A stretch of DNA of 34,738 nucleotides from Thermodesulfovibrionales bacterium. GTDB lineage: Bacteria > Nitrospirota > Thermodesulfovibrionia > Thermodesulfovibrionales > UBA9159. The DNA is taken from contig DASRZP010000064.1 of NCBI GenBank assembly GCA_035686305.1, forward strand, positions 1 through 34,738, in the 5' to 3' direction. A program made the translations under genes and the position numbers. Every line of letters begins with the position of its first letter. Positions within the stretch are counted from its first letter, which is position 1. Below, in pieces: positions 16,668 through 31,241 of this stretch. The notes beneath the pieces were generated by a model. The model had not been told where the DNA came from. It searched no databases and worked only from the letters and a program-made list of their open reading frames with translations.

Positions 16668-19625
16668 ATGTTCGAGGCCTATAATCTTTTCAGTATTGTC
16701 CTGTGCTATCTCTTTCTTCTCTTTGCCTTAGCCTACTATGCGGAGAGAAAGGAAAAGTCGGGAAGGAGCATCGCCAATAACCCTTACATCTATTCCCTAT
16801 CACTAGCGGTCTACTGCACGTCATGGACCTTTTACGGGAGCGTAGGGAAAGCGGCCACGTCAGGACTCTCCTTCCTCACCATCTATCTGGGGCCGACGCT
16901 CATGGCGACCCTCTGGATTGTCATGCTCAGGAAGGTCGTGAGGATTGCCAAGGCAAACAGGATCACGACCCTGTCTGACTTCATCGGATCACGATACGGT
17001 AAATCGCTCTTCCTTTCTTCCCTGGTGACGATTGTTGCCGTAGTCGGTATCACGCCATACCTGGGACTTCAGATCAAGGCGATCATCAGCACCTTTGACA
17101 TCATATCCGGTGAATCATCGGGAAGCGCTGCCATTGGACTCTTTATCACCTTGACCCTTGGAATCTTCGCAATCATCTTCGGCGCTCGCCGCCTTGATTC
17201 GTCAGAGCGTCACGGTGGCCTCGTCTTCGCCATCGCCTTCGAGTCCATCGTGAAGTTGGCTGCCTTTCTCCTCGTCGGTACCTATGTAACCTACGGGCTC
17301 TTTAATGGCTTCGGCGATATCTTTGCCAAGATTAAGGATTCTGAGCACTCTGTGCTCCTCTTTCTCGGGACAGGGACGGGGACGGATTATCCTGAATGGC
17401 TGTCGCTTCTTTTCCTCTCGATGATGGCCATCATGTTCCTGCCCCGCCAGTTCCAGATGGCTGTTGTCGAGAACTATGACGAAAACCATGTGACAAAGGC
17501 TGCATGGCTCTTTCCTCTCTATCTCTTTCTCATGAACATCTTCGTGCTGCCTATCGCCTTTGGCGGGCTTCTCCTCGGGGGTTCGGGGAAGAATGCCGAT
17601 TACTTTGTGCTCACCCTGCCCTGGGAGCACGGCAACAGGTACCTGTCGCTTTTGGCGTTTATCGGCGGCTTTTCAGCGGCTACGGGCATGGTAATCGTCG
17701 AAAGCCTGGCTCTGAGCACCATGGTAATGAACAGTATCATCATGCCGGCGCTGATCAACTTCCATGATGCCCCGAAATTCTCCTCCGTCGTCCTTAACAT
17801 TAAGAGACTCGTAATCCTCTCTGTCGTCTATATGGGCTATGTCTTTGCGACTTCAATCGGAGAATTCTACAGCCTTGTCGAGATCGGACTCAAGTCATTT
17901 GCTGCGGTGAGTCTCTTTGCGCCGGCCTTCTTTCTCGGACTCTACTGGAAGAGGGGGACGAGGGCCGGGGCCACAGCAGGACTCCTTGCAGGCTTTGCTG
18001 TCTGGTTCTACACCCTCATCGTTCCCGCCCTCATAAAGGCGGGGATCGTGAAGAATGTCGGTGTTATCGAGCTCATGACGGGTTCTGAAATGCTCAATCC
18101 GCATAATCTCTTCGGAATCGTTGACCTTGGCAAATGGGGAAACTCGCTCTTCTGGAGCATGCTCATAAACCTCATCTTCTACGTCGGCGTCTCGATCTTC
18201 ACCAGACAGTCAAAGGAGGAGGAGATCCAGTCCCTCATCTTCGTAGATTCCTATGAAAGGGTGAAGGAACTCGCCCACGGAAGTTCTTATACGGCCCATG
18301 ATATCGAAAATATCCTTGCCCAGTATATCGGCAGGGCCGAGGCAGGAGACGTCACCGCGCACTATCTGTCGAAAAAAGGGAAGAGCCATGAGGAACTTAC
18401 GCCAAGGGAACTTTTTGAGTTGCGCGACGAGGCGGAAAAGATCCTCTCAGGCGCGATCGGCTCTTCCATGGCCGCGATTATCTTCGAGGATAAGCTCGTG
18501 CTGACGGAGAGGGAGAGAGGGGAACTTTCTGAATCGATCAAGCATATCACCGAACATCTGAGACTCTCCCGTCAGGAACTGGCGGAAGCGAACCGGGAAC
18601 TCTCGTATCTCAAGGAATTCAGTGAGAATATTATTGAAAGCGCCCCCGTCGGCATCGTGACCGTTGATGCTCTTTTCAATGTCAAATACTGGAACAGGGA
18701 GATGGAGTCCATAAGCGGCATCGGGAGATCAGTTGCCTTTAACAGGTCTCTGCTCCATCTGCTGCCATGGTTGACAAGGGAGGTACTCATACGGACAGAG
18801 GAAAAGGAGATGACCGTCGAGACTCCTTCCCTCCAGTCCTTCAAGATCAATGTGAGCCCGTTCAAAGACCCTTCGGGCGGGCATGTTGTCATCTTCGAAG
18901 AGATCACGGAGAAGAAGAAGATGGAGGAGCAACTCTTGCAGACGTCAAAGCTCGCCAGTATCGGTAAATTGACAGCCGGGATATCCCATGAGATCGGCAA
19001 CCCCCTTGCATCGATATCCTCCCTCGTCCAGGAACTCAGGTCATTGAGCATCGAATCACGGGACGATGTCGAATTTGTAGACGGCTCGCTGAAGACGATC
19101 AACAGCCATATCGATCGGATCGTGAAGATCGTCCGGAGCCTGGGCGATTTCGCGAGGATATCCTCCCCGGAAAAGACGCCTTCCAATATTTCTGAGATCC
19201 TTGACAGAACGATAAACCTTGTCAGGTATGACAAGAGGTTTAAGAATATTCAGCTCATCACTGATATAGACGGGATTCCGTCCCTGAGGGTCAATCCCGA
19301 TAAGATCCAGCAGGTCTTTTTGAACCTCATTATCAACGCCCTCGATGTCATGCCCGACGGCGGCAGACTGAGCATCTCGATGAAAAAGACCGATTCATCC
19401 GTTCAGGTAGTTTTCAGCGATTCGGGCCCGGGGATCGAGGAAGGCCTTGTTGGCAGGATCTTTGATCCCTTCTTTTCGACGAAGGCCCCGGGGCAGGGCA
19501 CGGGCTTAGGTTTGAGCATCTGCTATGGTATAATCAGGGAACATAACGGGACGATAACGGCTAAAAGCAAAAAAGGAGAGGGGACTACATTCGTCATAAC
19601 CCTGCCCGCCGACAAGAATGAATGA
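16668..19625 (+). CDS. Sodium:solute symporter-STAC-PAS-histidine kinase (CrbS/CbrA-like)
   Basis: 985 residues. Residues 1 to ~505 form a 13-helix SLC5/SSS transporter (SNNPYIYSLSLAVYCTSWTFYGSVGKAA, GFSAATGMVIVESLALSTMV). A STAC-like linker follows (~515-620; EAEKILSGAIGSSMAAIIF is the typical end), then a coiled coil (~620-655), a PAS domain (~655-755; ENIIESAPVGIVTVDALFNV), HisKA with phospho-His774 (GKLTAGISHEIGNPLASI) and HATPase_c with N-box NLIINALDVMPDGG, DSGPGIEEG and GTGLGLSICYGI. In CrbS of Vibrio and Pseudomonas this architecture controls acetyl-CoA synthetase and acetate use; CbrA controls carbon/nitrogen balance. The acs-actP genes downstream favour the acetate role. Its last 8 bases overlap the first response-regulator gene. 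Start GGAATG 16668. Confidence 0.9.
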   Translation: MFEAYNLFSIVLCYLFLLFALAYYAERKEKSGRSIANNPYIYSLSLAVYCTSWTFYGSVGKAATSGLSFLTIYLGPTLMATLWIVMLRKVVRIAKANRITTLSDFIGSRYGKSLFLSSLVTIVAVVGITPYLGLQIKAIISTFDIISGESSGSAAIGLFITLTLGIFAIIFGARRLDSSERHGGLVFAIAFESIVKLAAFLLVGTYVTYGLFNGFGDIFAKIKDSEHSVLLFLGTGTGTDYPEWLSLLFLSMMAIMFLPRQFQMAVVENYDENHVTKAAWLFPLYLFLMNIFVLPIAFGGLLLGGSGKNADYFVLTLPWEHGNRYLSLLAFIGGFSAATGMVIVESLALSTMVMNSIIMPALINFHDAPKFSSVVLNIKRLVILSVVYMGYVFATSIGEFYSLVEIGLKSFAAVSLFAPAFFLGLYWKRGTRAGATAGLLAGFAVWFYTLIVPALIKAGIVKNVGVIELMTGSEMLNPHNLFGIVDLGKWGNSLFWSMLINLIFYVGVSIFTRQSKEEEIQSLIFVDSYERVKELAHGSSYTAHDIENILAQYIGRAEAGDVTAHYLSKKGKSHEELTPRELFELRDEAEKILSGAIGSSMAAIIFEDKLVLTERERGELSESIKHITEHLRLSRQELAEANRELSYLKEFSENIIESAPVGIVTVDALFNVKYWNREMESISGIGRSVAFNRSLLHLLPWLTREVLIRTEEKEMTVETPSLQSFKINVSPFKDPSGGHVVIFEEITEKKKMEEQLLQTSKLASIGKLTAGISHEIGNPLASISSLVQELRSLSIESRDDVEFVDGSLKTINSHIDRIVKIVRSLGDFARISSPEKTPSNISEILDRTINLVRYDKRFKNIQLITDIDGIPSLRVNPDKIQQVFLNLIINALDVMPDGGRLSISMKKTDSSVQVVFSDSGPGIEEGLVGRIFDPFFSTKAPGQGTGLGLSICYGIIREHNGTITAKSKKGEGTTFVITLPADKNE

Positions 19626-20793
19626 AAGGCTGCTGATCGTCGAAGACGAGGAGACTCTCTGTGAGTCGCTGAAAAGGGTACTCTCACGAGAAGGCTATAT
19701 TGTCGATATCTCTTACAGCGCCGAGTCAGCCCTCGATCTTTTTGAACAGAGGTTTTACGACCTGATCATAACTGATATCATCCTGCCCGGGAATACGGGG
19801 ATAGAGCTGCTGAAGTCGGTCAAGGAGAAAGTCCCTGAACAGATCGTGATCATAACCACGGCCTATGCATCGCTGGAGACGGCTGTTGAAGCCCTTCGGG
19901 CAGGCGCCTATGATTATGTGGTGAAGCCCGTCATGCACGAAGAGATTAAGCAGATTGTGAAGAATGCTCTCACTCAGGCTGCACTCCAGGAAGAAAACCT
20001 CAGGCTTCGCAGGCATATCGAGAGGCACTATGACCTCAGTATGATTATCGGTGAGAGTGCTGTCATGAGGACCGTCATCGGCGAAGTGAGGAATATCTCG
20101 GGTAGTGGGAAGAACGTTCTCCTGAACGGAGAGATAGGAACAGGCAGGGAGCTTATCGCCAGGGCCATACATCTGAACAGCGGAAGGGACGGTAAGCCCT
20201 TCATCCCGGTAAATCTCTTTACGATTCCCGAAGAGCTTCTTGAGGCAAGGCTCTTTGGTTATGTAAAAGGGGCCTTCAAGGATGCCCTGACTTCCAGGAA
20301 GGGGCTTTTTGAGGAAGCCGATGGCGGGACGCTCTATCTTCGTGACATCGGCTTCCTGAGCGGCTCTCTCCAGGCAAAACTGTTCAGGGCCCTTGAAGAC
20401 CATGAGACCGTTCCCGTTGGCGGCAAACAGGGCATTAAGGTTGACATGCGGATCGTTTCTGCCACAAGCCATGATATCGCCTCTGCGGTGGCGAAAGAGG
20501 AATTCAGGAAGGACCTCTATGGCCTGTTGAACGGTATCTCATTAAGGCTTCCTCCTCTGCGGGAACGAAAAGAAGATATAGAGCCCCTGGCAAGACACTT
20601 TATCAGAAAGTATTCCCAGGATTTGTGCAAGCCCGTCAAGGAACTCGAAGGGGAGGCCCTGGATCTCTTCCTTCGGTACGATTGGCCGGGCAACGTGAGG
20701 GAACTCCAGAATATTATTGAAAGGGCGGTCCTCATATCGGATACTGACATAATAAGGGTGAATCATCTCCCCCAATTCTTCCCGCCGGCGTGA
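19618..20793 (+). CDS. Degenerate NtrC-type response regulator lacking GAFTGA and DNA-binding domain
   Basis: 391 residues: receiver domain intact (LLIVEDEE; phospho-Asp53; Lys103), then a sigma-54 AAA+ domain with damaged motifs. Walker A is GEIGTGRE (171-178; the lysine is Arg), the sigma-54 contact loop GAFTGA is GAFKDA (218-223), Walker B LDEI is LRDI (241-244), sensor I ATN is ATS, and one arginine of RxDLYYRLN is lost (RKDLYGLLN). The C-terminal Fis-type helix-turn-helix is missing; the protein ends just after the AAA+ lid (WPGNVRELQNIIERAVL). It should not open sigma-54 promoters itself. Possible roles: phosphate sink, inhibitor, or mixed oligomer with the intact paralogue at 22801. 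The start overlaps the kinase stop, so it is the kinase's coupled partner. Confidence 0.88.
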   Translation: MNERLLIVEDEETLCESLKRVLSREGYIVDISYSAESALDLFEQRFYDLIITDIILPGNTGIELLKSVKEKVPEQIVIITTAYASLETAVEALRAGAYDYVVKPVMHEEIKQIVKNALTQAALQEENLRLRRHIERHYDLSMIIGESAVMRTVIGEVRNISGSGKNVLLNGEIGTGRELIARAIHLNSGRDGKPFIPVNLFTIPEELLEARLFGYVKGAFKDALTSRKGLFEEADGGTLYLRDIGFLSGSLQAKLFRALEDHETVPVGGKQGIKVDMRIVSATSHDIASAVAKEEFRKDLYGLLNGISLRLPPLRERKEDIEPLARHFIRKYSQDLCKPVKELEGEALDLFLRYDWPGNVRELQNIIERAVLISDTDIIRVNHLPQFFPPA

Positions 20794-20885: not shown

Positions 20886-22781
20886 ATGATCCTTGAAGAT
20901 GTCATAAGTTTTCTCAAGAAAATCCCCCCCTTCCAGTCTCTCGATGAAAAGACCTTGAAGACCGTTGCCGGCAGTCTGTCCATGGAGTTCTATCCGAAAG
21001 AGACGGTCATTCTGGCGCAGGGAGGCCCGCCAAGCGATTCCCTGCGGATCATAAAAAAAGGCGGGGTGAAGATTGTCATGAGGTCGGAGAATGGAGAGGA
21101 CGTCGTGATGGACTACCGGGGGGAGGGCGATAACTTCGGGTTCCTCTCGATGATCGGTAAAGAACGGGGCAAGACGACGGTCATTGCTATTGACGATACC
21201 ATCTGTTATACCCTGAGACAGGAAAGAGTCCTGAAGCTCATAGAATCGACTCCGGCCTTCACAGAGTATTTCATGTCATACCTTTCGAGGTATATCGACA
21301 GGGCTTACAGCGAAATGCAGACCAAGAGTCGGTCCTCTGTCGGCAGCGACCGTTTTCTGTTTACGACACCCGTGGGGAGGATAGCGACGGAAGCTGTCAT
21401 GGTCAGCGATGACATGACCATTCAGGAGGCCGCCCAGACTATGACAAAGAACAAGATCAGTTCTCTCATCGTCCGTGACAAGAAGAGCCTCCCCTCGGGT
21501 ATCGTTACAGACAGGGACCTCAGGGACAAGGTTGTTGCACGGGGACGCAACGTACGGGAACCGATAAAAAACATCATGTCCATATCCCTCATAAGGGTTG
21601 ACGCTCAGGATTCCTGCTTTGAGGCCGTATTGAAAATGCTGAAATACAATATCCATCACATGCTGGTGATAGAAGACGGGGCGTTGAAAGGCATCATGAC
21701 CAATCATGACCTCATGCTCCTCCAGGGAACGTCCCCCCTCTCCTTTGCCAGTGACATAGAAAACCAGCAGACTGTCGACGGTCTCTTGCCGGTATCCTCA
21801 AAAATAAACAATCTCATCGGTCTCCTCCTCAAGGAGGGTGTGAAGGCGAGCGGGATCACGAAGATCTTAACCGAGATCAATGACAGACTGGTAAAGAAAG
21901 TCATCGAAATTGCAGAGAAGGAATGTGGACAACCGCCGCTTCCCTATTGCTGGATCGTTTTCGGCAGCGAGGGTCGCAAGGAACAGACCTTCAAAACAGA
22001 CCAGGATAATGCTATCATCTTTGTTGACCCCGTAACGAAGGAAATGGAGGAGGCTGCTAAGGCTTATTTTCCCTGCTTTGCAGTTTTTGTCAGAGACAGC
22101 CTTCTGAAGATCGGTTTCCCCCTTTGTCCCGCCGACTATATGGCGAGCAATCCCCAGTGGTGCCAGCCGCTCAAGGTCTGGAAAAAGTACGCGGCGGACT
22201 GGATGAACGAACCGACTCAGGAGGCGGTGTTGAAATCCCTCATCTTTTTCGACGCCAGGCCCCTCTATGGTAAATTCAGCCTCCACGATGAGCTGCGAGG
22301 GTCTTTCCGGCTCCTCTCGGAGGGACAGAATGTCTTCCTCTGTCATATGGCGAACCTGATCATAAAAAATACCCCGCCCATCGGTTTTCTCAAGTCCTTC
22401 GTTGTCGAGAAGGGCGGTGAACATAAGGACGAGTTCAACCTTAAGGTGAAGGGTATTACCCCGCTCGTTGATGCCGTGAGGCTCTTTGCCCTCGAAAAGG
22501 GTGTTCGGGAAACGTCGACCCTCGGAAGAATCGAGGCTCTGAGAGAACGACACGCGATTGTAAAGGAACATGTTGAAGAGCTGAGGCATGCCTTTGAGTT
22601 CATCATGCTTCTCAGGATCCAGCATCAGTTCGAGCAGATCAGTGAAGGCGTGAAACCTGACAACTTTATCAATCCCAACAAGCTGAGCAACCTCGAGAAG
22701 AAGACGATCCGGGAGGCCTTTCATCTCGTGTCGAGCCTGCAGGAGCTGATCTTCGAGAGGTGTAAGGCCTTCATCGTGTAA
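20886..22781 (+). CDS. cNMP-binding / CBS / DUF294 nucleotidyltransferase-like signalling protein (copy 1)
   Basis: 631 residues in four parts: cyclic-nucleotide-binding domain (~10-130: FYPKETVILAQGG, GDNFGFLSM), tandem CBS domains (~165-285: MTIQEAAQTMTKNKISSLIV, SGIVTDRDLRDKVV; GIMTNHDL), DUF294 nucleotidyltransferase-like domain (~310-450) and DUF294 C-terminal helices (~480-625). The nucleotidyltransferase motif GSEGRKEQTFKTDQDNA starts at ~360 and retains the Gly-Ser and the DxD-type acidic pair. The family resembles GlnD-type uridylyltransferases and travels with acs-actP, DnaQ-like exonuclease and CrbS-type kinases; substrate unknown. The second copy at 24411-26312 is very similar throughout. 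The 92 bases ahead of it show no clear promoter; ribosome site weak. Confidence 0.87.
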   Translation: MILEDVISFLKKIPPFQSLDEKTLKTVAGSLSMEFYPKETVILAQGGPPSDSLRIIKKGGVKIVMRSENGEDVVMDYRGEGDNFGFLSMIGKERGKTTVIAIDDTICYTLRQERVLKLIESTPAFTEYFMSYLSRYIDRAYSEMQTKSRSSVGSDRFLFTTPVGRIATEAVMVSDDMTIQEAAQTMTKNKISSLIVRDKKSLPSGIVTDRDLRDKVVARGRNVREPIKNIMSISLIRVDAQDSCFEAVLKMLKYNIHHMLVIEDGALKGIMTNHDLMLLQGTSPLSFASDIENQQTVDGLLPVSSKINNLIGLLLKEGVKASGITKILTEINDRLVKKVIEIAEKECGQPPLPYCWIVFGSEGRKEQTFKTDQDNAIIFVDPVTKEMEEAAKAYFPCFAVFVRDSLLKIGFPLCPADYMASNPQWCQPLKVWKKYAADWMNEPTQEAVLKSLIFFDARPLYGKFSLHDELRGSFRLLSEGQNVFLCHMANLIIKNTPPIGFLKSFVVEKGGEHKDEFNLKVKGITPLVDAVRLFALEKGVRETSTLGRIEALRERHAIVKEHVEELRHAFEFIMLLRIQHQFEQISEGVKPDNFINPNKLSNLEKKTIREAFHLVSSLQELIFERCKAFIV

Positions 22782-22800: not shown

Positions 22801-24147
22801 GTGAACGAGAGACTGCTGATCGTTGAAGACGAAGAGACCCTCTGCGAGTCTCTGAAGAGGGTACTTGAGAGAGAAGGATATGTGGTTGACGCCTTTACCA
22901 GTGCCGAATCCGTTCTCGGAAAGATTGAAGAGATGGCCTATGACCTGATCATCTCGGACATTACCCTTCCCGGGATCGACGGGATAGAGCTCTTGCGCAG
23001 GATAAAAGAAAAATTGCCGGAACAGATCGTCATCATCATCACTGCCTATGCCTCGATAGAGACCGCAGTCGGTGCCCTCAGGGCCGGAGCGTATGATTAT
23101 GTCATAAAGCCGATCATGCATGAGGAGATAAAGAGAATCGTCAGAAATGCCCTGAAAGAACGGTCCCTGAGGGCAGAAAATGTATTGCTCAGGAGGCAGA
23201 TAGAGGAGAGATACGATTTCGAAAAGATCGTGGGCCAGAGCAGTGAGATCTCCGCAGTGATCGGTGAAGTCAAGAAGATTGCCGATTCAAGGAGCAGTAT
23301 ACTCCTTCTCGGCGAGACCGGTACGGGTAAGGAGCTTGTGGCGAGGGCTATTCACTATAACAGCTTCCGTCAGGACAAGCCCTTTGTCCCAATAAACTGC
23401 AGCGCGATTCCAGAGAATCTCCTTGAATCAGAACTCTTCGGGTATATAAAGGGGGCTTTTACGGGCGCAACGGGTTCGAAGAGGGGTCTCTTCGAGGAGG
23501 CAGACGGCGGGACTATCTTTCTCGATGAAATCGGAGAACTGAGCCAGCACTTACAGGCAAAGCTCCTCCGGGTAATAGATGACCATGAGATAAGACCCCT
23601 CGGCAGTACTCAGTCCCGAAAAGTCGACGTGAGGTTTATTGCGGCCACAAACAAGGACATCCTGAGGGCGGTAAATGAAGGTACCTTCAGGGAAGACCTC
23701 TACTACAGGATCAATGTCGTCACGATCACGTTGCCGCCTTTGAGGGAAAGGAGAGAGGACATTGTTATCCTCGCGAAGCACTTTGTCGAGAAATATGCGA
23801 ACGAGATTGGAAAGTCAGTAAAGTTTATCGATGATTCTGCCCTGAAAATTCTCGTGGACTACCCCTGGCCTGGAAATGTCAGGGAACTGCAGAACATCAT
23901 TGAACGCGCGGTGCTCATAACCGAAAGCAACACGATCTTTCGGGAACATCTTCCCGAAGGCATGAAGGTCCGCGATTCTTTCGTAGCTGCTGCCTTTAAT
24001 ACCGTCCTTTCAATCGAAGACTATACAAAGGAATTCATCCTGAGGTTCCAGTCAGCCTATACCGAACAGAAGCTTGCAGATATGCTCGGCATCACGAGAA
24101 AGTCTTTGTGGGAAAAGAGAAGAAAATGGGGGCTCAAGAGGAAATAG
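22801..24147 (+). CDS. Intact NtrC-family sigma-54 response regulator
   Basis: 448 residues, all three domains. Receiver with phospho-Asp53 and Lys103; AAA+ with Walker A GETGTGKE (171-178), GAFTGA (218-223), Walker B LDEI, ATNKD, FREDLYYRINVV and PPLRERREDI; a C-terminal Fis-type helix-turn-helix, YTEQKLADMLGITRKSLWEKRRKWGL. The first ~30 residues are almost identical to the degenerate paralogue at 19618, showing duplication. Predicted to activate sigma-54 RNA polymerase; candidate targets in the window are the promoters at 24367-24382 and 16202-16217. The start is GTG 22801 (matching MNERLLIVEDEE of the paralogue) with ribosome site GGAAGG about 14 bases ahead. No ATG start fits better. Confidence 0.93.
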   Translation: MNERLLIVEDEETLCESLKRVLEREGYVVDAFTSAESVLGKIEEMAYDLIISDITLPGIDGIELLRRIKEKLPEQIVIIITAYASIETAVGALRAGAYDYVIKPIMHEEIKRIVRNALKERSLRAENVLLRRQIEERYDFEKIVGQSSEISAVIGEVKKIADSRSSILLLGETGTGKELVARAIHYNSFRQDKPFVPINCSAIPENLLESELFGYIKGAFTGATGSKRGLFEEADGGTIFLDEIGELSQHLQAKLLRVIDDHEIRPLGSTQSRKVDVRFIAATNKDILRAVNEGTFREDLYYRINVVTITLPPLRERREDIVILAKHFVEKYANEIGKSVKFIDDSALKILVDYPWPGNVRELQNIIERAVLITESNTIFREHLPEGMKVRDSFVAAAFNTVLSIEDYTKEFILRFQSAYTEQKLADMLGITRKSLWEKRRKWGLKRK

Positions 24148-24366
24148 TTACTATTGTTCACGGTAAGGCCTCATTCTTGTTACAATAAGTTACATAAGGT
24201 AATATCTTAAAATTAAGGATATTTCATTTATCATTTCGTTCCATGTTACCTCTAGTAACTAATTTGTCTGAGCTCTAAAATTGAGACTTTAAGGTCAGTG
24301 ACCGGTTATTTGCAATAATCCTTGTTATACAGTAAGTTATGCTATCTTGACCTACCAAATAATCTT

Positions 24367-24382
24367 GGGCACATTACTTGCG
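24367..24382 (+). promoter_or_regulatory. Probable sigma-54 promoter of the second cNMP/CBS protein
   Basis: GGGCAC (24367-24372; TGGCAC with one change), exactly five bases, then TTGCG (24378-24382): GG-N10-GC spacing is exact. The start would be near 24393, 18 bases before ATG 24411. It follows 230 AT-rich bases with no gene, room for upstream activator sites, immediately after the NtrC-type gene. Confidence 0.6.
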
Positions 24383-24410
24383 TGTTCATAAAAGAGTTAT
24401 GAATGTCACC

Positions 24411-26312
24411 ATGCCTATCGAAGACGTCATCGAGTTCCTTAAAGAGGTCACACCGTTTCACGAGCTTGACGAAGCTACTCTGAGCAGTATCGCGAGTAGT
24501 ATCTCCATTGAATTCTATCCGAAGGGTTCCATGATACTCCGCCAGGAAGGGCCTGCAAGTGAGTACCTGAGGATCATCAGACAGGGTTCGGTGAAGGTAT
24601 TCATAAGGTCTGGCAGGGACGACGAGGTCATGATCGACGTAAGGGGCGAAGGCGATTCCTTCGGCTTTCTCTCCCTTGTGAGCGGCGACAAATCCAGGGC
24701 CAATGTAGTTGCTCTGGATGACACCACCTGCTATCTTATAGGTCGGGAGAAGGTCCTTGAGCTTCTCGAAACCTATCCGGCTTTTACCGAATACTTTCTC
24801 GTTTCCGTCCTGAACAAATATATCGACAAGACTTATAAGGAGATGAGGAAGAAGAGCGTCCTTTACAGTGGAGGAGACAGACTCCTCTTCACCACCCCCA
24901 TCGGCGAGCTTGTTACAAAGGCGATCATAACCGCGTCCCAGGAGATCTCGATACGGCAGGCTGCCGAGATCATGTCGGAAAACAGGATAAGCTCTCTTGT
25001 CCTTGTCGATTCCGAAGGGGTTCCGACAGGTATCGTCACGGACCGGGACCTGAGGGATAAGGTTGTCTCAAAGGAAAGAAATGTCTCGGAAAGCGCGAAG
25101 ACGATTATGAGCGTCTCCCTTATCAAGGCCGACGCCCGTGATTATTGCTTCGAAGCGATTCTCAACATGATACGGTACAACATACACCACCTTTTGGTGA
25201 TCGACAACGGCAAACTCAAGGGGGTGATCACCAACCATGACCTTATGATGCTCCAGGGCACTTCTCCCATCTCTATAGCACGGGAGATAGAAAGTCAGCA
25301 GTCCGTAGAAGGACTGGTCCCTGCGTCGAAGAAGATAAACAAGATCATAGAGCTCCTCCTCAAGGAAGGGGCCAAGGCGAGCAATATCACAAGGATCATT
25401 AGCGAGATCAATGACCGGCTCTTTAGGAAGATCGTCGAGATTACGGAAAAGAAGCTCGGAAGCCCTCCTCTTGATTATTGCTGGATCATTTTCGGCAGCG
25501 AAGGCCGTAAGGAACAGACCTTCAGGACCGATCAGGACAACGCGATCGTCTATGAAGACACAACGTCGCCTGAGAGGGAGGAAGAGGCGAGGACCTATTT
25601 TTCGGCCCTCACGCTCCTCGTCCGCGACGGTCTTCTGAAATGCGGATTTCCGCCCTGTCCTGCCGATTATATGGCGAGCAACCCCCAGTGGTGTCAGCCG
25701 CTGAGGGTGTGGAAAAGGTACTTCTCTCTGTGGGTCAACGAACCGACGGCTGAAGCCCTTTTGAAGTCCCTCATATTCTTCGATTTCAGACCGCTTTATG
25801 GCAATATAAGCCTTTCTGAGGCGCTCAGAGATGCCCTCTCTTCCTTGCTGAAGAGCCAACCGGCCTTTTTCGGCTTTATGGCAAATGCCGTGATTAAGAA
25901 CACCCCTCCCATGGGCTTCCTCAGGTCCTTTGTGGTCGAAAAGAGCGGTGAGCACAAGGATGAATTCGATCTCAAAGTAAAAGGGATTGCCCCCCTTGTT
26001 GATGCCGTCAGACTCTTTGCTCTCGAGAAAGGGATACGGGAGACCTCAACCCTTGAAAGGATTGAGACGCTGAGAGACCGGCATACGATCGTCAAGGAGA
26101 GCGCCGAAGAGCTTGAATATGCCTTTGAGTTCATCATGCTCCTGAGGGTCCAGCATCAATTTGATCAGATCGAGGTGGGCAGGCAGCCTGACAATTTCAT
26201 CAATCCGTACAAATTAAGCAGTCTTGACAAAAAAATCCTGAAGGACAGTTTCTCTCTTATTTCAAGGATACAAGACCTTATCATCGAACGATACAAACAG
26301 TCAATCTTGTAA
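24411..26312 (+). CDS. cNMP-binding / CBS / DUF294 nucleotidyltransferase-like signalling protein (copy 2)
   Basis: 633 residues from ATG 24411, the start that aligns with copy 1 (MPIEDVIEFLKEVTPF versus MILEDVISFLKKIPPF). In-frame starts at 24399 (ATG) and 24378 (TTG, inside the sigma-54 -12 box) are also open. Same order: cNMP domain (FYPKGSMILRQEGPASEYL; GDSFGFLSLV), two CBS domains (ISIRQAAEIMSENRISSLVLV; GIVTDRDLRDKV), nucleotidyltransferase motif GSEGRKEQTFRTDQDNA at ~362, and DUF294 C-terminal region ending LISRIQDLIIERYKQ. It is followed, three bases on, by the DnaQ-like exonuclease, the pairing found in many acetate-use loci. It differs from copy 1 in having its own sigma-54-type promoter, so expression of the two copies may differ. 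Confidence 0.87.
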   Translation: MPIEDVIEFLKEVTPFHELDEATLSSIASSISIEFYPKGSMILRQEGPASEYLRIIRQGSVKVFIRSGRDDEVMIDVRGEGDSFGFLSLVSGDKSRANVVALDDTTCYLIGREKVLELLETYPAFTEYFLVSVLNKYIDKTYKEMRKKSVLYSGGDRLLFTTPIGELVTKAIITASQEISIRQAAEIMSENRISSLVLVDSEGVPTGIVTDRDLRDKVVSKERNVSESAKTIMSVSLIKADARDYCFEAILNMIRYNIHHLLVIDNGKLKGVITNHDLMMLQGTSPISIAREIESQQSVEGLVPASKKINKIIELLLKEGAKASNITRIISEINDRLFRKIVEITEKKLGSPPLDYCWIIFGSEGRKEQTFRTDQDNAIVYEDTTSPEREEEARTYFSALTLLVRDGLLKCGFPPCPADYMASNPQWCQPLRVWKRYFSLWVNEPTAEALLKSLIFFDFRPLYGNISLSEALRDALSSLLKSQPAFFGFMANAVIKNTPPMGFLRSFVVEKSGEHKDEFDLKVKGIAPLVDAVRLFALEKGIRETSTLERIETLRDRHTIVKESAEELEYAFEFIMLLRVQHQFDQIEVGRQPDNFINPYKLSSLDKKILKDSFSLISRIQDLIIERYKQSIL

Positions 26313-26314
26313 GA

Positions 26315-27019
26315 ATGCTGGGCTTGTTGAATTTCAGGAAGAGGAAGGGAACAGTGATCGACGAAACGCTGCCGGTCGGTAAGGTCAGGTATGTCATAAT
26401 CGATACCGAACTCACCGGTCTTGATGAAAAACGAGACTCCATCGTCTCCATGGCTGCCATACGGATGGTAGGCGGAAGGATAGACTTTGGAGATGTCTTT
26501 TATAAGCTTGTAAACCCTGAGACGGAACTGACCGCGAAAAGCATCATTATCCATGGAATTACACCCTCGGATGTTGTCGAGAAGCCTGAGATTGCCACGG
26601 TCCTCTCGGAATTTGTCCAGTTCTGCGGCAACGATGTCGTTGTGGGGCATTGCATATCGGTGGACCTCGCCTTTATCAACAGGGAGATGAAAAGAATTCT
26701 CGGATACGCCTTGAAGAACGAGGTCCTTGACACGTCTGCCATCTATGAATGGATACGGAAAAGGTATTCTTCCCAGAGGACTTTCCCTTCTCGGTTCACG
26801 GACTCAGGATTGTTTGACATCGCAGAGCATTTTGGAGTCTCTGTTACCGGCGCGCATAATGCGGCAATGGACGCATTCATCACGGCGCAGGTCTTTCAGC
26901 GGTTCATCCCTATGCTGACCGGAGGAGGGATAAACAGCATAGGCGACCTGTTAGGTATCGGTAATCCATCAAAGGGAGGTGATAGGACAGGACATGCGAT
27001 TGGGATGTACACTTTTTAG
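26315..27019 (+). CDS. DnaQ-like DEDDh 3'-5' exonuclease
   Basis: 234 residues of the DnaQ/polymerase-epsilon family. Exo I: IIDTELTGLDEKRDSIVSMAA (the Asp and Glu metal ligands); TAKSIIIHGITPSDV; Exo II: GHCISVDLAFINREM (Asp); Exo III: TGAHNAAMDAFITAQVF (His and Asp). No BRCT or polymerase domain is attached, so it is a stand-alone exonuclease, possibly acting on small RNA or nucleotide signals. Exonucleases like this lie next to DUF294/CBS proteins and acs-actP genes in many proteobacteria; their role there is unknown. ATG 26315 follows the stop of the previous gene directly, with an overlapping ribosome site. Confidence 0.88.
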   Translation: MLGLLNFRKRKGTVIDETLPVGKVRYVIIDTELTGLDEKRDSIVSMAAIRMVGGRIDFGDVFYKLVNPETELTAKSIIIHGITPSDVVEKPEIATVLSEFVQFCGNDVVVGHCISVDLAFINREMKRILGYALKNEVLDTSAIYEWIRKRYSSQRTFPSRFTDSGLFDIAEHFGVSVTGAHNAAMDAFITAQVFQRFIPMLTGGGINSIGDLLGIGNPSKGGDRTGHAIGMYTF

Positions 27020-27043: not shown

Positions 27044-27070
27044 TATAACCTGATGGAGGAGGTAAGAGTA

Positions 27071-27388
27071 ATGAGCAGTAAGAAGACCGTGCATGAAATC
27101 CTTGAGGACGAGGATTTCAAATCATTGACGAGTCAGAAGAATACGATCTCCGTAATTCTGACGGTTCTGGAACTGGTTCTCTATTTCGGGTTTATCGCCC
27201 TGATCGCCTTTAACAAACCGTTCCTGGCCCAGAAGCTGAGTGAAGGGTCGGCCACGACGATCGGAATTCCCATTGCTGTCGGCACGATCCTTTTCTCCTG
27301 GGTCTTTACGGGTATTTACATCTTTTGGGCGAACAGCAAGTATGACGTGCTGGTCAAGAAAGTCAAAGAGAAAGTGATAGGAGGATAA
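27071..27388 (+). CDS. DUF485 membrane protein (YjcH-like)
   Basis: 105 residues. N-terminal motif [27 protein letters not shown] and two membrane helices, [15 protein letters not shown] and [25 protein letters not shown], then a basic tail [13 protein letters not shown]: the usual DUF485 layout. Such proteins are encoded just before ActP-type symporters (yjcH-actP in E. coli). ATG 27071 has the best ribosome site (GGAGGAGG, 8 bases ahead); the in-frame ATG at 27053 overlaps that site. It ends 2 bases before actP, so translation is probably coupled. Confidence 0.9.
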
Positions 27389-27390
27389 CG

Positions 27391-29130
27391 ATGCCACAAG
27401 CAACACAAACTATGATAGGTCAGGCGAACCCGACGGCGATAATGTTCTTCGTTTTTTTCGTTGCTAGTACCCTGGGCATTACGTATTGGGCTGCAAAGAG
27501 AACGCGGACCACAAAGGACTTCTACGCCGCGGGCAGGAGCATCACCGGTTTCCAGAACGGCCTCGCCCTTGCCGGTGATTACATGAGTGCAGCGTCCTTT
27601 CTCGGGATCGCGGGAATAGTCTCGACAAAGGGGTATGACGGCCTCATCTATTCAGTGGGATGGCTGGTGGGATGGCCGATCATCATGTTCCTCATATCAG
27701 AACCCCTGAGAAACCTGGGCAAATACACCTTCGCCGATGTTGTCGCGTACCGGCTGAACCAGAGACCGATAAGGGCCGCTGCTGCTGCGGGCTCTCTCGT
27801 GGTCGTTCTCACCTACCTTATTGCCCAGATGGTTGGAGCAGGAACGCTCATAAAGCTGATGTTCGGTATCCCCTTTGAGGTTGCTATCATAGTGACGGGA
27901 ACACTGATGATATCCTATGTGATCTTCGGTGGTATGATCGCGACCACATGGGTCCAGATCATAAAGGCATGCCTGCTCCTCGGCGGAGCGACACTTCTCG
28001 TTATCCTGACCCTCGCCCAGTTCGGTTTCAGCTACGCCGAGCTCTTCGGCCAGGCAGAGAAGATGTACACGAACAAGTTCCTCGAGCCGGGAATACTCGT
28101 TACGGACCCCGTCGATGCCTTCTCCCTCGGACTCGCGCTTATGTTCGGTACGGCAGGACTTCCCCACATCCTCATGAGGTTCTATACGGTCCCTGATGCA
28201 AAGGCTGCAAGGAAGTCGGTCTTCTACGCAACAGGGTTCATCGGATACTTTTACATCCTCACCGTTACCATCGGTTTCGGCGCGGCAGTTCTCGTAACCC
28301 AGAAGGTCATCATGGGTATAGACAAGGGCGGCAACATGGCAGGACCTCTCCTTGCAGAGGCCCTCGGCGGGAACCTCTTCCTCGGGTTCCTTTCGGCCGT
28401 TGCCTTTGCCACCATCCTTGCCGTTGTCTCAGGCTTGACCCTTGCAGGCGCATCCGCCTTCTCCCATGACCTCTTTGTCGGCGTCATCAGGCGCGGCCAG
28501 GCATCAGAAAAGGATGAGGTGAAGGTCGCAAAGATCGCGACCGTCGGCCTTGGCATCACGGCAATGCTCCTCGGGATCCTCTTTAAGGGCCAGAACGTCG
28601 CCTTCCTCGTCGGCCTCACCTTTGCTATCGCTGCGAGCGCCAACTTCCCTGCGCTCCTCATGTCGATCCTCTGGAAGAAGTTCACCACATACGGGGCGGT
28701 GACGAGTATTTACACCGGCCTTATCGTCGCTACAGCGCTCCTGATCCTCAGCCCGACGGTATGGGTCGATATCGTCCACAAGGACGATGTGGCTGCGGTG
28801 AGCAAGCAGGTCAAGACAATCGAAGACGGCGTAAAGGCAAAGGTCGCCGAACTCGAGAAACAGAAAGTCCCGGGAGTCGATCCTGTAATGGCAGCGCAGA
28901 TAGATGCCTCGATTGCAGCAGAGAAGAAGGCGGCAGAACCACAGATTAAAGCGGCAAAGTCCAATATGCCGAAGGCGATTTTCCCTCTTAAGAACCCCGG
29001 TATATACTCTATGGCAGCAGCCTTTATCATCGGCATTCTCGTGTCCCTCATGGCGCCTGACAAGGTCGCCGAAGCGAAGTTTGATGGTGAGAAACTGAGG
29101 GAGTATATCGGCATAGGGGCTGAAGATTAG
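27391..29130 (+). CDS. actP: ActP-like sodium:solute symporter with a coiled-coil loop insertion
   Basis: 579 residues, SSS/SLC5 family, likely carrying acetate or another short carboxylate into the cell with Na+ or H+. N-terminal helix [19 protein letters not shown], then [37 protein letters not shown], the classic ActP segment, and [24 protein letters not shown]. Compared with ActP proteins I know, which run SPTVWVDV...IFPLKNP, this one carries about 65 extra residues at ~463-527 between the last helices: charged, Ala/Lys/Glu-rich, helical, with a probable coiled coil ([28 protein letters not shown]-like repeats). Genes for acetyl-CoA synthetase and DUF485 flank it. Confidence 0.9.
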
Positions 29131-29179
29131 TTAGCAGTTCTTAACCATCGTCGGTCGGCGTTAGGAAAGGCTCTATCCG

Positions 29180-29225
29180 GGGGTCAGAATGAGGGAGAAG
29201 ACCTCTCCGTCTCTATTCTGACTCC
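29180..29225 (+). terminator. Long hairpin between actP and acs
   Basis: GTCAGAAT (29183-29190) pairs with ATTCTGAC (29215-29222), extended outward by G-U and G-C pairs, enclosing a smaller GGAGA/TCTCC hairpin. The downstream side has only a broken T-run, so it may be a partial terminator or an mRNA-processing site that tunes acs against actP. Confidence 0.4.
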
Positions 29226-29264
29226 TGGTGTTTCATGAAAAAATAACTATGACGGAGGACCGGA

Positions 29265-31241
29265 ATGTCAAAAGAGAGCATTAGCGTCTTGATGGCTGAA
29301 AACAGGACATTTCCACCATCAAAGGAGTTTAGCGGAAAGGCCCACATCAAGAGCATTCAGGACTATGAAAAGATCTATAAGAAGTCTGTAGATGACCCCG
29401 AAGGCTTCTGGGGTGAGATGGCAGAAAAGCATCTCACCTGGTACAAGAAGTGGGATAAGGTGCTGGAATATAATTTTGAGAGACCCGAGATCAAGTGGTT
29501 CCAGGGCGGGAGGATCAATGTCTCCTACAACTGTCTTGACAGGCACATAACGACACCCACACGGAACAAGGCTGCCATTATCTGGGAAGCCGATGACGGG
29601 AGTTACAAGACCTACACCTACCAGCAGATGTACTATGAGGTGAACAAGTTTGCGAATGTCCTCAAGAAGCACGGAGTGAAGAAGGGCGACAGGGTCACCA
29701 TATATCTCCCCATGATCCCGGAGTTGGCCATCTCCATGCTCGCCTGTTCCAGGATCGGGGCCATTCATAGCATCGTGTTCGGAGGATTCAGCGCACAGTC
29801 CTTGAGGGACAGGATCCAGGACTGCAAGGCGAGTCTTCTCATCACCTGCGATGAGGGCGCGAGGGCAGGGAAATTCGTGCCCCTCAAGGCCAATGCAGAT
29901 GAGGCGCTCAACGAGTGTCCGACGGTCGGGAAGGTGATCGTCGTTCAGAGGACAAAGAGCGGCGAGATCAATATGGTTAACGGCAGGGACCTGTGGTGGA
30001 ATACGGAGATGTCGGCTGCGGACGTTCAGGGCTACTGTGAACCGGTCCAGATGGACGCTGAAGATCCGTTGTTTATCCTCTATACCTCGGGTTCGACAGG
30101 AAAGCCAAAGGGAGTGCTCCACACGACAGGAGGCTACCTCCTCTTTGTGAACCTCACCTTCAAATGGATCTTCGACTACCAGGAGGAAGACATCCATTTC
30201 TGCACAGCAGACATAGGCTGGGTAACGGGACATAGTTACATTGTGTACGGGCCTCTTTCTGCGGGCGCCACGAGCCTGATGTTCGAGGGTGTACCGACCT
30301 ATCCGAACGCCGGCAGATTCTGGGACATCTGCGACAAGCACCGGGTTAATATCTTTTATACAGCTCCGACTGCCATAAGGGCCTTGATGAGGGAAGGCGA
30401 AGGCTGGGTTACGAAACATGACCTTTCATCCCTGAGATTGCTGGGCACCGTTGGCGAGCCGATCAATCCCGAAGCCTGGATGTGGTATCACACCCACGTC
30501 GGAAAGGGAAAATTACCTATTGTGGATACGTGGTGGCAGACAGAGACAGGAGGGATCCTCATAACGCCCCTTCCCGGAGCCATGACCTTGAAGCCGGGAT
30601 CAGCCACAAGGGCCTTTCCCGGTGTTGTCCCTAGGGTCTTGAAAGAAGACGGTTCTCCTGCAGGGGTAGACGAAGGCGGTTACCTTGTTATCGAGAAACC
30701 CTGGCCGGGCATGCTGAGGGGTACTTTTGGGGACCCGGAAAACAAGAGGGTAAAGGAGGTTTACTTCACGAGGTTCCCCGGCAGGTACTTTACCGGAGAC
30801 GGCGCAAGAGTTGACGGAGACGGTGATTACTGGCTCATGGGGAGAATCGACGATGTCATCAACATCTCCGGCCACCGGCTCGGGACGGCTGAGGTCGAAT
30901 CGGCCCTCGTGAGCCACGAGGCCGTTGCAGAGGCAGCGGTGGTCGGTTATCCCCACGACATTAAGGGAGAGGGCATTTATGTCTATGTGACCCTTAAGGA
31001 AGGTAAGCAGCCGACAGATGAACTGAAGAAGATTCTTGTGGGCCATGTGAGGACGGTCATCGGGCCCATCGCAACACCCGACAAACTCCAGTTTGCACCG
31101 GGTTTGCCGAAGACGAGGAGCGGCAAGATCATGAGAAGGATTCTGAGGAAGATCGCCCACGGACAGATTGATGAACTGGGTGATACCTCGACCCTTGCCG
31201 ATCCATCAGTTGTTGACAACCTGGTAAAGGGAAGACAGTGA
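29265..31241 (+). CDS. acs: Acetyl-CoA synthetase (AMP-forming)
   Basis: 658 residues, full length. Converts acetate, ATP and CoA to acetyl-CoA. AMP-binding landmarks: [20 protein letters not shown] (P-loop), [46 protein letters not shown] (A8 hinge) and the C-terminal [11 protein letters not shown] with Lys621, the residue acetylated to switch the enzyme off in known Acs. N-terminal ACAS region [20 protein letters not shown] present. Strong ribosome site GGAGG 7 bases before ATG 29265. It completes the DUF485-actP-acs series and suggests growth on, or scavenging of, acetate. A long hairpin at 29180-29225 separates it from actP. Confidence 0.96.

Follow-up and report, generated by a model that had tools for sequence, protein, structure and literature searches.

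The site at 24367-24382, consisting of GGGCAC and TTGCG separated by ATTAC, is very probably a real sigma-54 promoter. The best explanation of the data, to which a probability of about 0.86 can be assigned, is that it is the genuine promoter of a switch formed by a sensor kinase and an NtrC-type activator, which would drive the genes for a DUF294 protein, an exonuclease, a DUF485 protein, ActP and Acs, and the activator of which, in relatives, would also work in trans on acyl-CoA ligase genes located elsewhere.

The features of the window (the whole stretch of 34,738 nt that was analysed) are collected in Table 1. The Pfam search found no receiver domain in the kinase and no match for STAC, which was judged by eye, and it gave no HTH match in the degenerate NtrC-type regulator, while the HTH of the intact activator is a weak HTH_8 match below the cut-off. 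The top NCBIfam matches of the symporter are ActP models, under their cut-offs, and models of CbrB, CrbR or CrbS were not among the best 25 NCBIfam rows for the kinase and the two regulators, which were below cut-off. Truncated NtrC-type proteins similar to the degenerate regulator are also found near the activator in several relatives; perhaps this protein is a phosphate sink or a partner of the intact activator.

Table 1. Predicted features of the window around the sigma-54 site
Feature	Position	Strand	Basis
Sensor kinase: SSF (SLC5) transporter domain, PAS, HisKA, HATPase; CbrA-like layout	16668..19625	+	Pfam
Degenerate NtrC-type regulator: GAFKDA replaces GAFTGA	19618..20793	+	Pfam, translation
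First cNMP-binding/CBS/DUF294 protein	20886..22781	+	Pfam
Intact NtrC-type activator: receiver, AAA+ with GAFTGA, C-terminal HTH	22801..24147	+	Pfam, translation
GTTAC-N5-GTTAC half-site pair, overlaps upstream dyad	24179..24193	+	pattern search
Upstream predicted activator dyad GTTACATAAGGTAAT, 1 mismatch	24189..24203	+	pattern search
Promoter-proximal predicted activator dyad GTTACCTCTAGTAAC, perfect GTTAC-N5-GTAAC	24245..24259	+	pattern search
Sigma-54 -24/-12 promoter GGGCACATTACTTGCG (very probable)	24367..24382	+	consensus match and conservation
Predicted transcription start	24393	+	12 nt after the C of the -12 GC; general rule
Second cNMP-binding/CBS/DUF294 protein	24399..26312	+	ATG 24399 or ATG 24411
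RNase_T-type exonuclease	26315..27019	+	Pfam
DUF485 protein	27053..27388	+	Pfam
ActP-like cation/acetate symporter	27391..29130	+	Pfam SSF over cut-off; NCBIfam
Strong hairpin between actP and acs	29177..29229	+	fold, -33.4 kcal/mol for 29161-29245
Acs, acetate--CoA ligase	29265..31241	+	NCBIfam, over cut-off

In the proposed mechanism, the SLC5-type kinase would sense a substrate (acetate or a related carbon signal is the probable candidate) and would phosphorylate the intact activator. The activator would bind to GTTAC-N5-GTAAC dyads upstream of the promoter, loop to the RpoN-RNA polymerase and open the promoter, as is the mechanism of its class. The transcript, predicted to start at about 24393, would be a message for the second DUF294 protein, the exonuclease, the DUF485 protein, ActP and Acs, and would have to run past the hairpin to reach acs.

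The first-pass annotation had proposed the site on the basis of GGGCAC-N5-TTGCG with exact GG-N10-GC spacing, 220 nt behind the activator gene; these letters are indeed present, 219 nt past the activator stop codon (24147) and just before the second DUF294 gene. The site deviates from TGGCAC-N5-TTGCW at two positions, the first and the last base, and it is the top scorer between the activator and the DUF294 gene, with 15 of 17 in a weighted consensus, a score that was matched by none of 40 dinucleotide shuffles of this gap. The bare GG-N10-GC motif was discarded as promoter evidence, because its frequency in the window is at chance level (285 observed versus 288.5 expected), and the same is true for TGGCAC-N5-TTGCW at up to three mismatches (124 versus 118). 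Thus the argument from the motif is weak by itself, and the conservation of the site was therefore examined. The genome (3.23 Mb, 147 contigs) contains rpoN, on which the first-pass proposal depends, in one copy (one Sigma54_DBD match, 3.1e-60). An IHF-type site with at most one mismatch to the consensus was not found between the activator stop codon and the promoter. As a general rule, sigma-54 promoters are expected to start transcription about 12 nt beyond the C of the GC in the -12 element.

With the C-terminal 50 residues of the activator as query, a match was obtained in 73 of 295 genomes of the phylum. In total 76 regions were examined, i.e. the window and 75 downstream stretches from the 72 other matching genomes and from G001, G002 and G003, which stem from another activator search (the region of L039 is shortened by a contig end). 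A site was counted when it scored at least 14 of 17, and expectations were derived from dinucleotide shuffles. A DUF294 gene starts within 700 nt after the activator orthologue in 36 of the 76 regions, and a site is present in 31 of these 36, the window included, compared to 2.4 expected; as the genomes are related, these tallies are counts and not probabilities or independent events. One of the five regions counted as lacking a site, L100 (G029), has a site of 16/17 and was counted in this way because the start of the DUF294 gene is misplaced. Among the 40 regions without a close DUF294 gene, 10 contain a site (6.4 expected), and six of these 10 score 17/17. It is this evolutionary conservation in 31 of 36 orthologous regions that provides the decisive support for the promoter.

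The gene neighbourhood is conserved as well: the activator has a DUF294 gene behind it in the same orientation in 21 of 28 named loci, some of which are shared with the 36-region set, and the order DUF294-exonuclease-DUF485-actP-acs recurs contiguously in named relatives, the nearest of which are mostly Nitrospirae, Nitrospiraceae or Thermodesulfovibrio MAGs. In G009, the activator is followed by a weaker site (score 14) and then by a SatP/YaaH-like and an Acs-like gene, as judged by eye.

Other genes, assigned by eye, follow the activator in some genomes. L094 and L096 (G042, G072) have a 17/17 site after the activator, dyads upstream, and genes for NiFe-hydrogenase-like subunits next, so that hydrogen use seems to have replaced acetate use as the target. 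At L053, L071 and L099 (G017, G111, G028), a formate-dehydrogenase-like gene lies almost directly after the activator, and no site scoring 14 or more is present within 450 nt behind it.

Two predicted activator dyads occur between 24150 and 24330, the segment in which the first-pass annotation had placed them; the half-site pair, the upstream dyad and the proximal dyad begin 188, 178 and 122 nt upstream of the promoter, respectively. Dyads were analysed in 38 promoter regions, after exclusion of three of 41 with a score of at least 14 (L045 and L087, which lack the GG, and L058, which has CTGCC at -12). Between the activator stop codon and the promoter, these regions contain 102 copies of GTTAC/GTAAC, versus 16 in shuffles. 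For the arrangement GTTAC-N5-GTAAC, 14 exact copies were counted where 0.0 were expected, and 49 copies where 0.7 were expected once up to one mismatch was allowed; among all spacings from 0 to 15, 5 is the only one with exact pairs in the 38 regions. Spacings of 10, 11, 12 and 15 yielded three to five one-mismatch pairs each (0.1-0.4 expected), which is partly due to rows of half-sites like that at 24179-24203. When two mismatches are allowed, 37 of the 38 regions have at least one dyad and 32 at least two, and the distances between dyads cluster at 65-67 and 29-34 nt.

It should be noted that the dyad alone does not define the regulon: in the genome of the window, dyads with no more than one mismatch show no enrichment (27, versus 83 for the reversed pattern). 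The promoter-proximal dyad is one of two perfect copies in this genome. The second (C88:658-672, L032) lies about 50 nt before an operon that is NuoE/NuoF-like by eye; the GG-N10-GC behind it, at C88:698, scores only 10/17, and the dyad may thus be there by chance.

A joint search for a near-perfect dyad and a -24/-12 site 75-105 nt apart in the 295 genomes identified seven places in six genomes, while the reversed pattern, used as a control, matched at two places within a single genome. The number of places is small because near-perfect dyads were demanded, and the arrangement in the window was missed because its gap between dyad and promoter core is 108 nt and only 105 were allowed. Six of the seven places precede genes for DUF294 proteins, acs or propionate/acetate-CoA ligase genes: DUF294 genes in G007 and G271, beside the activator, and in G154, on another contig; acetate--CoA ligase genes in G010 and in G226, here about 0.9 kb behind its activator; and, at a second place in G010, a gene whose best score is for propionate--CoA ligase. 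The ligase genes of G010 and G226 run off the locus ends. Of the two places in G010, one is about 66 kb from the activator and the other is further away. Nothing was recognised after the place in G025, which resembles coding sequence by eye. That the activator drives the gene next to it, as proposed, is thereby supported from two sides, namely by the co-conservation of activator, dyad and promoter across the phylum and by the presence of the same dyad and promoter before acetate/propionate ligase genes in genomes that encode the activator.

How far the message extends is less certain. Read-through from the DUF294 gene into the exonuclease, DUF485, actP and acs genes, which had been suggested as a possibility, is plausible in view of the short gaps between them (2, 33, 2 and 134 nt, in this order) and of the recurring gene order; the part concerning acs is weakened by the strong hairpin in front of it, and acs may thus be read less. 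The hairpin has arms like GGGTCAGAAT and ATTCTGACTCC, no T-run follows the full stem, and the terminator scan detected two small terminator-like stems inside it, so it is possibly a site of attenuation or processing. Alternatively, the promoter might serve only the DUF294 and exonuclease genes, or transcription might end before acs, which would then have its own promoter. The 134-nt gap with the hairpin would fit this alternative, as would G226, which has a separate dyad and promoter directly before acs; nevertheless, it is the less probable reading, because the contiguous gene order is conserved and the actP-acs gap of the window does not contain any GG-N10-GC on the + strand. It is far less probable that the promoter is real and driven by another NtrC-type activator, with the dyads belonging to a different DNA-binding protein. 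The activator search gave 54 matches in the genome (the number scored of 90 candidates), showing that many paralogues exist, but dyad, promoter and this HTH subtype adjoin each other throughout the phylum, and the half-site is that of CbrB, which, according to the accessible text of the papers cited below, is paired with the same type of kinase. Least probable of all is a chance GG-N10-GC, with the downstream genes transcribed from a sigma-70 promoter or through run-on from the operon of kinase and activator: despite the lack of enrichment of the bare motif, and despite sigma-70-like sites identified as consensus matches (19 in the scanned stretch versus 11.0 in shuffles, sd 3.0, including 24157-24186 and 24207-24234 in the activator-DUF294 gap), the site and the dyads are strongly conserved.

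The predicted kinase/activator switch resembles two known systems in different respects. CbrA/CbrB of Pseudomonas, as far as described in the accessible parts of two papers (PMC6296734, PMC8871633), likewise consists of an SLC5 and PAS kinase and an NtrC-type activator with a sigma-54 target, and the CbrB half-site, (T)GTTAC/GTAAC(A), equals that of the Nitrospirota; the likeness is one of half-site and protein types. However, the consensus for CbrB in the available text of PMC8871633, which calls CbrAB unique to Pseudomonadaceae, is TGTTAC-N12-14-GTAACA-N15-19-GTAACA, and the subsites are described as non-palindromic in the excerpted text of PMC6296734, whereas the half-sites of the Nitrospirota form a tight palindrome with a 5-nt spacer, mostly as two dyads at the two distances given above. 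In addition, the target in Nitrospirota is an operon of protein genes for acetate use, and the phylum differs. A test of the CbrB pattern with spacers of 12-14 gave no exact match and four with at most one mismatch, versus 0.8 expected. Thus, the predicted Nitrospirota system would work like CbrB, yet it is not filed as CbrAB.

The second system is CrbS/CrbR (MxtR/ErdR), an acetate switch of gammaproteobacteria, the regulon of which comprises, in the available text of PMC5715377, acs, actP and pflu5625, which encodes a protein with cAMP-binding, CBS and nucleotidyltransferase domains. Here, too, an SLC5 kinase goes together with acs, actP and a DUF294-type gene, in the Nitrospirota by position and motif. 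According to the same partial source, CrbS is a hybrid kinase and CrbR, which controls the regulon, belongs to the LuxR family and acts through the ACTU repeat, the acs promoter being of the RpoD type; in contrast, the Nitrospirota kinase has no receiver, and the regulator is of the NtrC type with a sigma-54 promoter. Taken together, the shared targets, half-sites and protein types suggest that the Nitrospirota system would do the job of CrbS/CrbR with the half-site and protein types of CbrA/CbrB and with a tight dyad of its own, and it is best read as a predicted sigma-54 counterpart of the gammaproteobacterial CrbS/CrbR with CbrB-like half-sites. An acetate switch with NtrC-type regulator and sigma-54 outside Pseudomonas was not found in the accessible parts of the literature searched.

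The position of the promoter has a consequence that the first-pass annotation did not foresee, namely a very short predicted leader. Two start codons follow the predicted transcription start, ATG 24399 after 6 nt and ATG 24411 after 18 nt; the leader counts are based on ATG 24411, which lines up with the starts of the relatives. Among the 31 orthologous DUF294 promoters, 18 have a predicted leader of 1-9 nt. In these 18, pairing with the anti-Shine-Dalgarno sequence is weak (mean -0.5 kcal/mol, none at the -6 kcal/mol or better that defines a strong Shine-Dalgarno motif here), whereas the 13 promoters with longer leaders have a mean of -4.8 and six cases at -6 or better (Mann-Whitney p 4e-4).

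A wider survey of TGGCAY-N5-TTGCW with context in eight genomes led to a similar picture. Of 90 sites (L230-L319, selected by the search program from the 116 matches listed), 58 are intergenic with a downstream ORF. Leaders of at most 8 nt were predicted for 13 sites, none with a strong Shine-Dalgarno motif, and leaders of 18-60 nt for 34 sites, 29 of which have one (Fisher p 6e-8); leaders of 9-17 nt were restricted to two sites, both without a strong motif and apparently mis-assigned, and nine further sites have longer leaders. The start codon was taken as the first at or after the predicted transcription start in the longest ORF; this rule excludes start codons ahead of the promoter and thus favours short leaders. 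Of the 130 sites L230-L359, 33 were set aside because they are covered by a long ORF, and 10 have no ORF. By eye, the assigned start is too early for L350, L272 and L250, and L267 is doubtful.

Because of this bias, genes whose N-terminus is conserved make the best cases. The leader predicted for lpxC is 3-8 nt behind a consensus sigma-54 site in nine Nitrospirota genomes (L194, L242, L264, L317, L325, L340, L348, L357, L358), and Pfam confirmed LpxC for both loci tested (L194, L242). That this lipid A enzyme should be under sigma-54 control is unexpected. A FlgF/G-like rod gene has a predicted leader of 2-5 nt in three genomes, and a small receiver-like protein one of 5 nt in the genome of the window (L224) and of 1-5 nt in three more, with one additional case that has a GTG start. 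Pfam detected flagellar rod domains in L240 and a FliK domain in the short-leader gene of L246, a receiver match below the cut-off in L224, and no receiver match in L254. Exceptions were noted by eye: the FlgF/G-like gene of G014, G026 and G051 has a longer leader with AGGAGG/GGAGG, and the leader of lpxC in G067 is about 27 nt long.

Leaderless mRNAs are defined in the available text of PMC4842269 and PMC5243855 by a distance of 0-10 nt between 5' end and start codon, and the leaders predicted here are alike in this distance. For C. jejuni and B. japonicum, the accessible portions of the sources report sigma-70 motifs of the -10 type at leaderless genes; the promoter discussed here differs in being of the -24/-12 type. 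For S. meliloti as well as B. japonicum, the available text of the maps mentions leaderless starts and also RpoN-type promoters, and no description of a sigma-54 class of leaderless mRNAs was found in the accessible parts of the literature searched.

The short predicted leaders suggest that sigma-54 leaderless mRNAs exist. We consider it somewhat more probable than not that the Nitrospirota have a conserved class of sigma-54 promoters from which transcription begins on the start codon or a few nucleotides ahead of it, which would result in leaderless or nearly leaderless translation free of Shine-Dalgarno motifs. This proposed class would include many of the DUF294-actP-acs switches, lpxC, the FlgF/G-like rod gene and the small receiver-like protein.

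In summary, an acetate switch with an SLC5 kinase and acs, actP and DUF294 genes is indicated in Nitrospirota with an NtrC-type regulator and sigma-54, and the GTTAC-N5-GTAAC dyad offers a ready motif for acetate regulons in a phylum represented here almost exclusively by metagenome assemblies. Should the short-leader class be real, control by sigma-54 would in this phylum go hand in hand with a distinct way of initiating translation, and the enhancer-dependent sigma factor would be linked to leaderless translation, which would be an unexpected coupling.
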